Below are positions 12,333 through 53,252 of a stretch of 64,000 nt of DNA, piece after piece. The notes below the pieces were generated by a model that was not told the origin of the DNA, did no database searches, and saw only the letters and a program-made list of their open reading frames with translations. The stretch is from Teredinibacter turnerae. GTDB taxonomy: Bacteria; Pseudomonadota; Gammaproteobacteria; Pseudomonadales; Cellvibrionaceae. The stretch is taken from positions 1,798,001 to 1,862,000 of the forward strand of contig NZ_CP149817.1 in the NCBI RefSeq assembly GCF_037935975.1, written 5' to 3'. The position numbers were made by a program, and so were the translations under genes. The first letter of the stretch is position 1. Each line of letters opens with the position of its first letter.

Positions 12333-12376
12333 TCGTTCTCTTGTGCTTTAGTCATTGGCTTTGTACTCTTCGCTTC

Positions 12377-12722
<346 letters not shown>

Positions 12723-12731
12723 AATTCTATT

Positions 12732-30937: not shown

Positions 30938-32107
30938 ATGTTTGAATTAGTTGATAGCATTCCGCAAAACGCAGTAATCAAAGTTGTCGGTGTGGGTGGT
31001 GGCGGCGGAAACGCAGTCAAGCACATGATTTCCAATGCCGTAGACGGTGTTGAGTTTATCTGCGCAAATACCGATGCGCAGGCGTTGAAAGATGTTGATG
31101 CGCGCACTGTACTGCAGTTGGGTCACGGCATTACCAAAGGGTTGGGCGCTGGCGCAAATCCTGATATCGGTCGACAGGCTGCGATGGAAGATCGTGAGCG
31201 TATTACAGAAGTGCTGCAAGGTGCAGACATGGTGTTTATCACCGCCGGTATGGGTGGTGGTACAGGAACTGGTGGTGCGCCTGTGGTTGCAGAGATCGCC
31301 AAAGAGTTGGGTATTCTAACGGTGGCAATTGTCACCAAGCCTTTTCCATTCGAAGGGCGCAAGCGTATGAAGATTGCCGATGAGGGAATCAAACAGCTTC
31401 AGGATCGCGTTGACTCTTTGATCACTATTCCTAACGAGAAGTTGTTAGCGGTACTCGGCAAGGCCACAACCTTACTCGACGCGTTCAAAGCTGCAAACGA
31501 TGTGTTGTTGGGCGCTGTTCAGGGCATTGCAGATTTGATTATCCGCCCGGGCATGATCAACGTGGATTTCGCTGATGTGCGAACAGTGATGTCCGAAATG
31601 GGCATGGCGATGATGGGAAGCGGAAGCGCAGCGGGTGAGAACCGCGCTCGCGAAGCTGCAGAAGCGGCAATCCGCAGCCCTCTGCTTGAAGATATTAATT
31701 TGCAGGGTGCACGCGGGATTTTGGTAAACATCACCGCCGGTATGGACCTGAGTTTGGGTGAGTTTACGGAAGTTGGCGATACCATCGAAGAGTTTGCCTC
31801 TCACGACGCGACGGTTGTCGTAGGTACGGTGATCGATCCGGAAATGAGCAACGAACTGCGGGTAACCGTGGTTGCAACTGGCCTGGGTGCTGAAGTGAAG
31901 GCTGAGAAGCCTGCGCCTGCAAAGGTAGTGGACAACACTCGCACAGCGGATGGCCGCCCGAACTACTCTGCGCTCGATAAACCAACAGTCATTCGCAATA
32001 CCAAAACTGCTGCCAGCTCTGCTGCAGCAGTCGCACAGCTCGAAGAAGCAGATAAAAACCTGGAATACCTGGACATTCCTGCGTTTTTGCGACGTCAGGT
32101 CGACTAA
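30938..32107 (+). CDS. ftsZ: Cell division GTPase FtsZ
   Basis: Tubulin homologue that forms the Z-ring. 389 residues. GTP-binding elements: [18 protein letters not shown] (about 16-33), CANTDAQAL, the tubulin signature [28 protein letters not shown], and the T7 loop region [24 protein letters not shown] variable linker (about 320-375) leads to the conserved C-terminal peptide [12 protein letters not shown] that binds FtsA and ZipA. AGGGGAAAAGAGGGG precedes the ATG at 30938. Confidence 0.99.
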
Positions 32108-50204: not shown

Positions 50205-50747
50205 ATGCGTATTTCTAATGGCTGGTTGCAAGAGGTTCGCCACGTGGCGTCACCTAACTACAACGCGCGCCCCCCTGGGTCTGACATCTCGCTCCTCGTT
50301 ATCCACAATATCAGTCTACCGCCGGGAAAATTCGAGGGTGATGCGGTCGAGCGGTTTTTCACAAACGGCTTACCTCCTGACGAGCATCCTTTCTACTCAT
50401 CTATTGCAGACATGAGAGTCTCGGCACACTGCTTTGTGCGACGCAACGGCGAGATTATTCAGTTTGTCAGTTTCGCCGAACGCGCCTGGCATGCGGGGCG
50501 ATCCAGTTTTTATGGTGAGACCGAGTGCAACGACTTTGCAATTGGGGTGGAGTTGGAGGGGACAGACTCGACACCCTATACTGATGAGCAATACGCCAGT
50601 TTGGCAAGTCTGACTGAGGCCCTGCAGGCCGCGTATCCAAAAATAACAAAAAGCCGTATTACCGGCCATGCTGACATTGCGCCGGAGAGAAAAACAGACC
50701 CGGGGCCAGCGTTCGACTGGTCGCGATATTTTGCGTTGCTGCCATAG
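50205..50747 (+). CDS. ampD: 1,6-anhydro-N-acetylmuramyl-L-alanine amidase
   Basis: Cytosolic zinc amidase that removes the peptide from anhydro-muropeptides during wall recycling; loss derepresses AmpC in species that have it. 180 residues from ATG 50205 (GGGAG upstream). Motifs: LLVIHNISLPPGKFEGDAVERFFTNG with the first zinc His, RVSAHCFVRRNGEIIQFVSFAERAWHAGRSSFYGETECNDFAIGVELEG and the C-terminal ITGHADIAPERKTDPGPAFDW with the second His, catalytic Lys and Asp ligand. No signal peptide, in agreement with AmpD rather than AmiD. An earlier ATG at 50145 adds 20 atypical residues. Confidence 0.96.
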   Translation: MRISNGWLQEVRHVASPNYNARPPGSDISLLVIHNISLPPGKFEGDAVERFFTNGLPPDEHPFYSSIADMRVSAHCFVRRNGEIIQFVSFAERAWHAGRSSFYGETECNDFAIGVELEGTDSTPYTDEQYASLASLTEALQAAYPKITKSRITGHADIAPERKTDPGPAFDWSRYFALLP

Positions 50748-50761
50748 TGTTGGGGACTGCT

Positions 50762-51601
50762 ATGAATTTATTTATTGTTATCTTGAGCATTGCGTTTCTT
50801 CAGGTGTGGGGCGCTGCAAACCCGTTACACAAAGACAAGTGGTTTGCTGTTTGGGCGGATTGGTGTGAAGCCTTAGTTAAAGGTCACTCTGCTTTCGCGT
50901 TTATCTTTGCTGTGCTGCTGCCGTTTTTCGCGATAGTCGCAGTACAGGGCTTTTTACTCTGGTTTTCGCCTTGGTTACTCTTACCCTTGGGAATGCTGGT
51001 TTTGCTCTATAGCTTTGGTCGCGGAGAGTTTGCAGACATCGTCAGCGAGTATACCAAGGCCTGCTATATAGAAGATTGGCCGTCTGCGTTAGAGCGCGCC
51101 CGGCGTCTTGGGGTTGATGTAGAGAATCTTGCTGATAACGACTGGCCCACGCTTCACAAGCACGTATTAGATGAAGCCGGTTATCGAGGGTTCGAGCGCA
51201 TGTTTGCAATTCTCTTCTGGTGTTTCAGTTTTGGGCCAGCGGTTGCTTTTTTATATCGCCTGAATTTTCTCTACTCACATAACTTGCGCCCGGATAACCC
51301 ACAGGCTCAGAAATTACTGTGGGTGCTCGAATGGCCCGCTGTGCGCTTACTGGGCCTCTCGTTCGCTCTTACCGGCAACTTCGTTGGCTGCTTTCAGCGC
51401 TGGAAGGAATGTTTTTTCTGCGCCCGGCGAAGCACTGTCGCGGTACTCAGCCCGCTTATTCTGGGGGCGCTATTGGTGGACGACAGCATGACCCAAACTG
51501 ACGAGGTAACGCGCAAAGAGCTGAATCTCCTCACGAGCCTTTACACTCGAACGCTCTGGCTTTGGTTGGCTGCCGCTGCAGTTTTAATTATTGTGGTCTA
51601 A
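50762..51601 (+). CDS. ampE: AmpE family membrane protein
   Basis: 279-residue inner-membrane protein of the AmpE/CobD-like family. Four to five hydrophobic segments: MNLFIVILSIAFLQVWG (1-17), AFAFIFAVLLPFFAIVAVQGFLLWF, WLLLPLGMLVLLYSFGRGEF, FAILFWCFSFGPAVAFLYRLNFL and LWLWLAAAAVLIIVV. Cytoplasmic signature SFGRGEFADIVSEYTKACYIEDWPSALERARRLGVD. Co-occurs with ampD as a two-gene operon in many gammaproteobacteria and was proposed to sense or signal in beta-lactamase induction; the biochemical role is unsettled. ATG 50762 with GGGG upstream, 14 bases after ampD. Confidence 0.92.
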   Translation: MNLFIVILSIAFLQVWGAANPLHKDKWFAVWADWCEALVKGHSAFAFIFAVLLPFFAIVAVQGFLLWFSPWLLLPLGMLVLLYSFGRGEFADIVSEYTKACYIEDWPSALERARRLGVDVENLADNDWPTLHKHVLDEAGYRGFERMFAILFWCFSFGPAVAFLYRLNFLYSHNLRPDNPQAQKLLWVLEWPAVRLLGLSFALTGNFVGCFQRWKECFFCARRSTVAVLSPLILGALLVDDSMTQTDEVTRKELNLLTSLYTRTLWLWLAAAAVLIIVV

Positions 51602-51776
51602 AACAGCTCGGGTAATATGGGGCGGCTATTTTTGGCGTGTATTGGCTATCGAAATAACGGGTAGAGGGTTAGTGAGTGATAACGCCTTAGCCCTTTGTTT
51701 TAGGGTGTTTGGCGTCAAAAATTCTATATTTGGCGCCACTAATTCCATTTTGGTTTTGTGACAGACAGCAAAGCGC

Positions 51777-51805
51777 TTGACCTTGTAAATTCATCGTCCT
51801 ATGAT
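51777..51805 (+). promoter_or_regulatory. Near-consensus sigma-70 promoter in the ampE-ampG gap
   Basis: TTGACC (51777-51782), exactly 17 bases, TATGAT (51800-51805). Start would be near 51812, reading rightward toward the 3' end of ampG. No protein-coding gene with a ribosome site follows. Bases 51602-51776 show no feature beyond a weak hairpin near the end of ampE. Confidence 0.6.
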
Positions 51806-51938
51806 GGGAACACTTACCGGTCGGCTGTATGTATATACAGTTCTCCCCGAAATGCACGGATGCGGCCATAGTACCCTTGAGGCGCCGATTTGGTGCCTAC
51901 CCCTTGAGCTGATAGCTGCGCCGGCCGGTAAGATTCCC
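51806..51938. other. 133-bp inverted-repeat element, possible small RNA
   Basis: Terminal arms GGGAA-CA-CTTACCGGTCGG (51806-51824) and CCGGCCGGTAAG-A-TTCCC (51921-51938) pair over 17 bp with one G-U and a small internal loop. Inside are a CTGTAT/ATACAG hairpin (51825-51840, also a LexA-like box), an AGGCGCC/GGTGCCT hairpin (51880-51898) and AGCT-GAT-AGCT. The 12-bp inner arm begins at the predicted transcription start of the promoter at 51777. No known RNA family is recognised. On the other strand it would be the 3' untranslated region of ampG. Confidence 0.5.
51825..51840. promoter_or_regulatory. LexA-like box
   Basis: CTGTATGTATATACAG fits the gammaproteobacterial SOS box CTGT-N8-ACAG with an AT-rich centre. 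It sits 13-28 bases downstream of the predicted start of the promoter at 51777, a position where LexA can repress. It is also a hairpin inside the surrounding inverted-repeat element, so its palindromic nature has another possible explanation. Confidence 0.5.
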
Positions 51939-51953
51939 ACCGTTATACCCTTG

Positions 51954-53252
51954 CTATTCCCTAGTTCGCTTTTTATACACGACTATGGCCAGTAACACGG
52001 CCGGTATACCCATGATTGCCGCATATCCGAAAAAGCCGGCGTAGCCAATATGATCCACTACGACACCGGAGAATCCACTTTGGAACTTGCCAGGCAGGGT
52101 CATAAGGGAGGAGAAAAGTGCTGATTGCGTGGCTGTATAAGCGCGATTGGTTAGCGACGCGATGTAGGCGATAAAGCCTGTCGCTGCCAAGCCTCCGCTC
52201 AGGTTGTCCGCACTTATTGCCGCGATAAGCCATGGCAGTTCCGGGCCGGTGTAGGCTAGCTGAACGAACAATAGATTGGTGCTCGCCACGAGTATTGCGC
52301 CTGCGATCAGGGTGCGGTGTACGCCATAACGTGCGACACACAAACCGCCGACAAATCCGCCCACAATGGTCATGATGAACCCGAACAGCTTGCTCACGCT
52401 GGCGATTTCGGTTTTGCTGAAGCCTAGATCCAGGTAGAAGGGATTGGCCATAATCCCCATCGTTATATCGCTCAATCGGTATAGCCCAATAAACGCAAGA
52501 ATCAAGAGAGCGAATTGGCCATTACGCTTAAAAAAGTCAACAAATGGGGCAACTACCGTTTCGTACAGCCATTCGTGGGAAAATAGTGTCAGAGGTTTAC
52601 CTGTGCGCGCGGCCGGTATCGGCTCGGCGATCGCCAGCGACACCAGCATTGCACCAAACATGAGAGCAGCCATGCTGGTGTAGGCGGTGGCCCAAGTGCT
52701 GGTGTCTGCTATGAGAAGACTGCCTGCCCCCGCGACGAGCAGGGCGAGCCGGTAACCGAGTATATATGTTGCTGCCATAGCGCCCTGGTATTCTTCACTT
52801 GCACTTTCGATGCGGTAAGCGTCTATGACGATGTCCTGGGTGGCGGATGCAAACGCGATGAGCACTGCACAGAGCGCAACCATAACCAAGTGCTGCTCCG
52901 GGTCGCTCGCGGCCATCAGCAGCAGGCCGATGGCGATAACGCCCTGGGCGAGCAGCAGCCAGCTACGTCGCTTACCAAGCCAGCGAGTTAAAAATGGCAG
53001 CGGCAACTGATCGACCACCGGTGCCCACAGCACTTTTACGGAGTAGGTAATGCCTACCCAGCCAAAAAATCCGATTGCAGAACGACTCACCTCCGCGTCT
53101 CTCAGCCAGGCGCTCAGTGTCGAAAATACCAGCAGGTAGGGCAGGCCGGCGGAGAATCCCAGGAGCAGTAGGGTGATCACTGGGCGGTGGGTGTAGAGCT
53201 TAAGCGCCCCCGTCCAGGAGCGGTGAGACTGTTTGTCCAAAAGGTTGTCCAA
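51954..53252 (-). CDS. ampG: AmpG-type muropeptide permease (MFS)
   Basis: Major facilitator protein of 432 residues with about 12 hydrophobic helices. The AmpG family imports GlcNAc-anhydroMurNAc peptides released during wall turnover. Family phrases: LLLGFSAGLPYLLVFSTLSAWLRDAEVSRSAIGFFGWVGITYSVKVLWAPVVDQ, FASATQDIVIDAYRIESASEEYQGAMAATYILGYRLA, RNGQFALLILAFIGLYRLSDITMGIMANPFYLDLGFSKTEIASV and the STSLTN-like YIASLTNRAYTATQSALFSSL. The start is probably the TTG at 53252, with a poor ribosome site. Neighbouring ampD supplies the next recycling step. Confidence 0.92.
   Translation of the reverse strand: MDNLLDKQSHRSWTGALKLYTHRPVITLLLLGFSAGLPYLLVFSTLSAWLRDAEVSRSAIGFFGWVGITYSVKVLWAPVVDQLPLPFLTRWLGKRRSWLLLAQGVIAIGLLLMAASDPEQHLVMVALCAVLIAFASATQDIVIDAYRIESASEEYQGAMAATYILGYRLALLVAGAGSLLIADTSTWATAYTSMAALMFGAMLVSLAIAEPIPAARTGKPLTLFSHEWLYETVVAPFVDFFKRNGQFALLILAFIGLYRLSDITMGIMANPFYLDLGFSKTEIASVSKLFGFIMTIVGGFVGGLCVARYGVHRTLIAGAILVASTNLLFVQLAYTGPELPWLIAAISADNLSGGLAATGFIAYIASLTNRAYTATQSALFSSLMTLPGKFQSGFSGVVVDHIGYAGFFGYAAIMGIPAVLLAIVVYKKRTRE

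Follow-up and report, generated by a model that had tools for sequence, protein, structure and literature searches.

The locus lies in the window, by which we mean the whole stretch of 64,000 nucleotides of Teredinibacter turnerae DNA that was analysed, in the gap between two genes of cell-wall recycling, an ampE-like gene (50747 to 51601, plus strand) and an ampG-like muropeptide transporter gene (51954 to 53252, minus strand). The upstream gene scores below the cut-off of the NCBIfam AmpE model and stands in the order ampD-ampE; the ampG-like gene, which is convergent, matches TIGR00901 at 528 bits. Within the gap, the plus strand carries a sigma-70 promoter (51777 to 51805) in which TTGACC (-35, 51777 to 51782) and TATGAT (-10, 51800 to 51805) are separated by a 17-nt spacer and agree with the consensus at 10 of 12 positions. 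A LexA (SOS) box, CTGTATGTATATACAG, follows at 51825 to 51840 (no strand is assigned to it), about +14 to +29 relative to the predicted start. An inverted repeat with a 13-nt core (51813 to 51825 and 51920 to 51932, 92% complementary) is extended outward by GGGAA/TTCCC (51806 to 51810 and 51934 to 51938) into a 133-nt element, and two hairpins lie inside, at 51854 to 51863 and 51880 to 51898. Promoter, box, and repeat element with its inner hairpins were all found where the initial annotation had placed them. Because the outer 5 bp of the repeat precede the predicted start and are kept in the nearest relative only, they probably fall outside the RNA that we predict at 51812 to 51940 on the plus strand, based on three covariance models (R1, R2, and R3) and with both ends inferred. 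A 64-aa open reading frame at 51801 to 51995 overlaps this RNA. Elsewhere in the window, the gap between ampE and the promoter holds a tandem pair of 21-nt units that are 76% alike (51708 to 51749), and a bacterial class A RNase P RNA is found at 12376 to 12727.

Taken singly, the promoter and the box are within chance expectation (0.9 promoter-like sites per 600 bases and 0.75 CTGT-N8-ACAG sites per window), and their significance comes from conservation. The locus occurs in single copy in its own genome (5.35 Mb, one contig). A DNA search of 57 relatives recovered diverged copies, some within its own genus and some from further genera of the family; the aligned copies have in common the promoter, arms of the type CTTACCGG..CGGTAAG, CTGT-N8-ACAG, a UUCUCCUC-type stretch, and GCANGGATGC. 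A covariance model built from 11 sequences found the RNA, once per genome, in 28 of 144 genomes of the family Cellvibrionaceae, related marine bacteria of 11 genera, and a second model, built from 26 distinct sequences, returned the identical 28 genomes. Outside the family, the first model found no member among 294 sampled genomes of the order, nor did the second find any convincing match in 369 genomes of the class, under strict filters that strongly diverged members could escape. Members had E values of 1e-10 or below, against noise at 0.002 and above (in the family scans, noise set in at about 3e-3 or above). Candidate loci with E values of 0.002 to 0.09 (L083, L102, and L104 to L108) were accordingly rejected as noise, and on inspection L083 and L102 lacked the anatomy of the RNA.

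A pattern holding the promoter and box geometry alone (TTGAC, TATNAT, and CTGTA-N6-TACAG-YTC) had 15 matches in 257 Gb of named genomes, every one of Cellvibrionaceae type (Exilibacterium, Pseudoteredinibacter, Pseudomaricurvus, Aestuariicella, Thalassocella, Marinagarivorans, and records titled Cellvibrionaceae). The RNA model matched all 15 sites, one of them clipped by the end of its stretch. No family in Rfam 15 exceeded its gathering threshold for this RNA, and the phage and plasmid collections that we searched held no match to it. The genome's 6S RNA is located elsewhere, which disposes of that identity.

The element folds well beyond what its composition would give, the 134-base stretch reaching z scores against shuffles of -5.0 on the plus strand and -2.65 on the minus strand. 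Over the family, the mean z was -4.2 on the RNA strand and -2.9 on the other, with the plus strand lower in 22 of 26 members. The terminal helix P1, formed by 51813 to 51825 and 51920 to 51932, is paired in 99.6% of cells across the 26 members and has compensatory changes in six of the nine pairs tested. The inner helix P2, in which CAGTTC (51838 to 51843) pairs with GAGCTG (51906 to 51911), has weaker support, with 85% of cells paired. For the structure as a whole, 8 pairs and 22 cells are changed on both sides, a result that none of 500 shuffles and no slid version equalled. An accessory hairpin, AGGCGCC..GGTGCCT (51880 to 51898), also has pair changes on both sides; it is confined to the seven members from the own genus and is absent from other genera. 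The 3' arm of P1 may double as a terminator stem, since in many members it is followed by a T tract. In the window copy, it is followed by G-poor, pyrimidine-rich DNA without a T tract, and no clear terminator was found there. We predict an RNA of about 100 to 140 nt across the family, starting near 51812 in the window and ending after the 3' arm.

Compared across the members, every reading frame is interrupted in at least one of them. An apparent mini-ORF, ATG-NNN-NNN-stop in the GGATG loop, seemed conserved in the first 11 members; it was rejected because the ATG is ACG in L067 and L078 to L080 and for want of a preceding Shine-Dalgarno sequence. With its own promoter, a conserved structure, and no conserved reading frame, the locus has the marks of a small-RNA gene. 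The gene-like conservation of helix, promoter, and box indicates that it is very probably a free-standing one, present in single copy.

The neighbourhood of the RNA bears on whether it might instead be an appendage of an adjacent gene. Wherever a contig shows the region, ampD-ampE lies upstream, directly or with another gene between. What lies downstream varies: a convergent ampG in the own genus and others, yajQ on the same strand about 125 to 475 nt after the RNA in several genera, and other genes elsewhere. The initial annotation had raised the possibilities of an RNA antisense to the 3' end of ampG and of an ampG 3'-untranslated region structure; an ampG terminator structure is a further variant. 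The stop codon of the convergent ampG at 51954, near the 3' end of the RNA, and the folding of the other strand, somewhat above chance, would suit such a cis-acting element. However, the predicted RNA finishes before the ampG coding region, the plus strand is the one that folds better in most members, and the RNA, its promoter, and its box are kept in many genera in which yajQ or another gene is downstream. We therefore consider a cis-acting element very unlikely. The constant neighbour is ampD-ampE and not ampG, and the suggested link between DNA damage and muropeptide import is likewise unsupported.

In the genera in which yajQ is co-directional, the RNA could in principle be a LexA-controlled leader of that gene or of another one downstream. 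The own genus has no co-directional gene in that position, and the terminal helix with its pyrimidine-rich tail resembles a transcription end, which makes a leader less credible still. Another suggestion, that of a mobile or dispersed repeat of the REP or ERIC kind, draws on the palindromic outline of the element and on the presence of REP-associated transposases in the genome; since the element has one copy per genome and comes after ampD-ampE on every contig that includes the region, that suggestion has a negligible chance of being right.

The promoter is present in all 28 RNA-bearing genomes, although it was not included in the first search models. It reads TTGAC[CG] (TTGCCA in one genus), then a spacer of 17 to 18 nt, then TANNNT, at the same place throughout. 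The box is equally constant, starting 18 to 20 nt past the -10 hexamer in every member, with CTGTA and TACAG invariant in 26 of 26 distinct members and the six bases between them variable, A/T prevailing. When the box was replaced by N in the covariance model, the identical 28 genomes were recovered, and no relative lacking the box was found among the family genomes; as the seeds of this masked model all carried the box, the test is a good one but not fully independent. Boxes of the same type stand upstream of lexA (CTGTATAAACAAACAG), recA, dinB, imuA, and dnaE2 in the own genome, from which, given established SOS biology, we infer that the host LexA uses a CTGTA-N6-TACAG-type operator. An operator of this type (CTGT-N8-ACAG) overlapping the promoter or next to it is expected of a gene in the SOS regulon, and the RNA locus has one.

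It has to be considered that the RNA may be structured but not under SOS control, with CTGTA-N6-TACAG retained as RNA structure or as an RNA-protein site only. The box does lie within the RNA, helix P2 includes its right half (CAG), and pairing of both halves is possible in some members, such that its conservation may in part be structural. Yet the left half, CTGTA, is invariant and has no conserved partner, while the real helices show compensatory changes; the inner bases vary in ways that disrupt hairpin pairing (CTGTACAAACATACAG); and the pattern equals that of the boxes at the host lexA, recA, dinB, imuA, and dnaE2 genes. On balance, an RNA without SOS control seems improbable, and LexA repression is the best explanation of the conserved box, because the same operator type stands at these SOS genes. 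The strength of the repression is assumed, the box being wholly downstream of the predicted start. Thus, the central proposal of the initial annotation, a structured small RNA controlled by LexA, is supported by the promoter and box in 28 of 28 genomes, by the matching boxes at host SOS genes, and by the compensatory changes in P1.

LexA-type boxes were also noted at other genes. Three near-identical REP-associated tyrosine transposase-like (RAYT) genes (L039, L040, and L050; box at 1501 to 1520, gene from 1544) have the box TACTGTATATTMARACAGTT 23 nt upstream of their start, and a fourth related gene (L048) has a box at 1501 to 1520, 14 nt upstream of its start. This suggests SOS control of the RAYT genes. 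An integron integrase gene (L047, 1533 to 2597; TIGR02249, 404 bits) has the box TACTGTATGTACAAACAGTT at 1501 to 1520, 12 nt upstream of its start.

Two conserved motifs hint at what the RNA may do. The first is a C/U-rich stretch, AGTTCTCCCC in the window (51839 to 51848) and typically UUCUCCUC, with the family consensus AGYTCTCCTC. Its CTCC part is predicted to be unpaired, and the mean unpaired probability is about 0.6 to 0.7 over the 3' part; being both conserved and mostly unpaired, it is likely to be an anti-Shine-Dalgarno-like pairing region. The second is a hairpin, GC-ACGGAT-GC (51854 to 51863), which fits CANGGAYG, the motif published for RsmA-type proteins (PMC11837529). In the general form GC-ANGGAY-GC, the C, the GGA, and the G are kept in 26 of 26 distinct members and the A in 25; N is filled by all four bases and Y by T in 22 members and C in 4. 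The full motif is fitted by 25 of the 26, the exception reading CTCGGATG, and a G-C pair of the stem has changed to A-U in three members. The hairpin is the only conserved GGA hairpin of the RNA, additional GGA being sporadic. Two CsrA genes are present in the own genome (L100 and L101).

These observations lead us to propose, with good though incomplete confidence, that the locus is a gene dedicated to a small RNA and controlled by LexA, whose product is induced by damage and most likely acts in trans. In the undamaged cell, LexA on the box would block the strong sigma-70 promoter. DNA damage would bring about RecA-stimulated self-cleavage of LexA and so free the promoter, and the RNA, closed by its own terminal helix, would accumulate. 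Its exposed AGYUCUCCUC would then pair with target mRNAs at their Shine-Dalgarno regions, and CsrA/RsmA would be bound by the ANGGAY hairpin. With one hairpin of the CsrA type, the RNA would more likely be acted on by CsrA, or deliver CsrA to its targets, than sequester it in bulk. A more ambitious proposal, which we regard as speculative and rather unlikely, is that of a new RNA family joining the SOS response to the Csr/Rsm network, in which the hairpin binds CsrA and the anti-Shine-Dalgarno stretch silences chosen mRNAs, with cell division as one candidate process. If so, the SOS checkpoint of the bacterial family would include an RNA-based arm.

We picked ftsZ beforehand as a target, by analogy with the SOS-induced RNA DinR. 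The ftsZ ribosome binding site has 10-bp complementarity to the RNA in several genera, and by contiguous pairing ftsZ ranked 3rd of 595, 4th of 302, and 19th of 270 gene starts; by duplex energy, its ranks in the same three sets were 19, 8, and 71. Cognate pairs of RNA and ftsZ were no better than swapped ones (permutation P of 0.36 and 0.47). Pairing z scores that had been computed with long gapped duplexes were left out of this assessment. We take ftsZ to be an unproven candidate. In most of these genomes, its ribosome binding site (near 30965 in the window; loci L109 to L124) is the small palindrome AAGAGGGGAACUCUUAUG, in which the Shine-Dalgarno sequence could be folded into the loop of a hairpin. 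A gene with weak likeness to SulA follows lexA (L035, 2115 to 2540); the small RNA may thus have a protein inhibitor of division alongside it.

Several known RNAs share individual features with the one described here. Like 6S RNA, it is closed by a terminal helix, but it is shorter and has no sequence match to it. With RsmX/Y/Z and CsrB-type RNAs it shares a CANGGAYG-type hairpin loop, and it differs in its LexA-box promoter and lack of an Rfam match; the sequestering RNAs of the CsrB/RsmZ type have several GGA hairpins whereas this RNA has one, and it is thus not of their class. With the hairpin conserved, a connection of DNA damage to the Csr network can be put to a direct test.

Among SOS-induced RNAs, DinR of Klebsiella pneumoniae is a regulatory RNA that acts on ftsZ, with a block of translation by pairing at the ribosome binding site proposed (PMC10907235). 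DinR derives from the dinI mRNA, from whose 3' end it is cut, while the Cellvibrionaceae RNA is served by a promoter and box of its own, and the ftsZ pairing of the latter is no better supported than any anti-Shine-Dalgarno stretch would give. Directly LexA-regulated small RNAs beyond those of toxin-antitoxin systems are said to be lacking (PMC10907235), and our literature search, which covered few subscription papers, brought up no account of such a free-standing RNA under LexA control. A parallel in control is IstR-2 of the E. coli tisB/istR locus, a small RNA made from its own LexA-controlled promoter (PMC2826370), as is predicted here. IstR-2 belongs to a toxin locus and contains the antitoxin IstR-1, whereas no toxin gene was found among the annotated neighbours of the present locus or within the RNA, the constant neighbour being ampD-ampE and the RNA holding no conserved small ORF. 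The two are unrelated in sequence and structure. LexA-repressed small RNAs are rare, and this one would be dedicated, toxin-free, and selectively kept across many genera of a family other than that of IstR-2, a test case for RNA control in the SOS response outside the enterobacteria.
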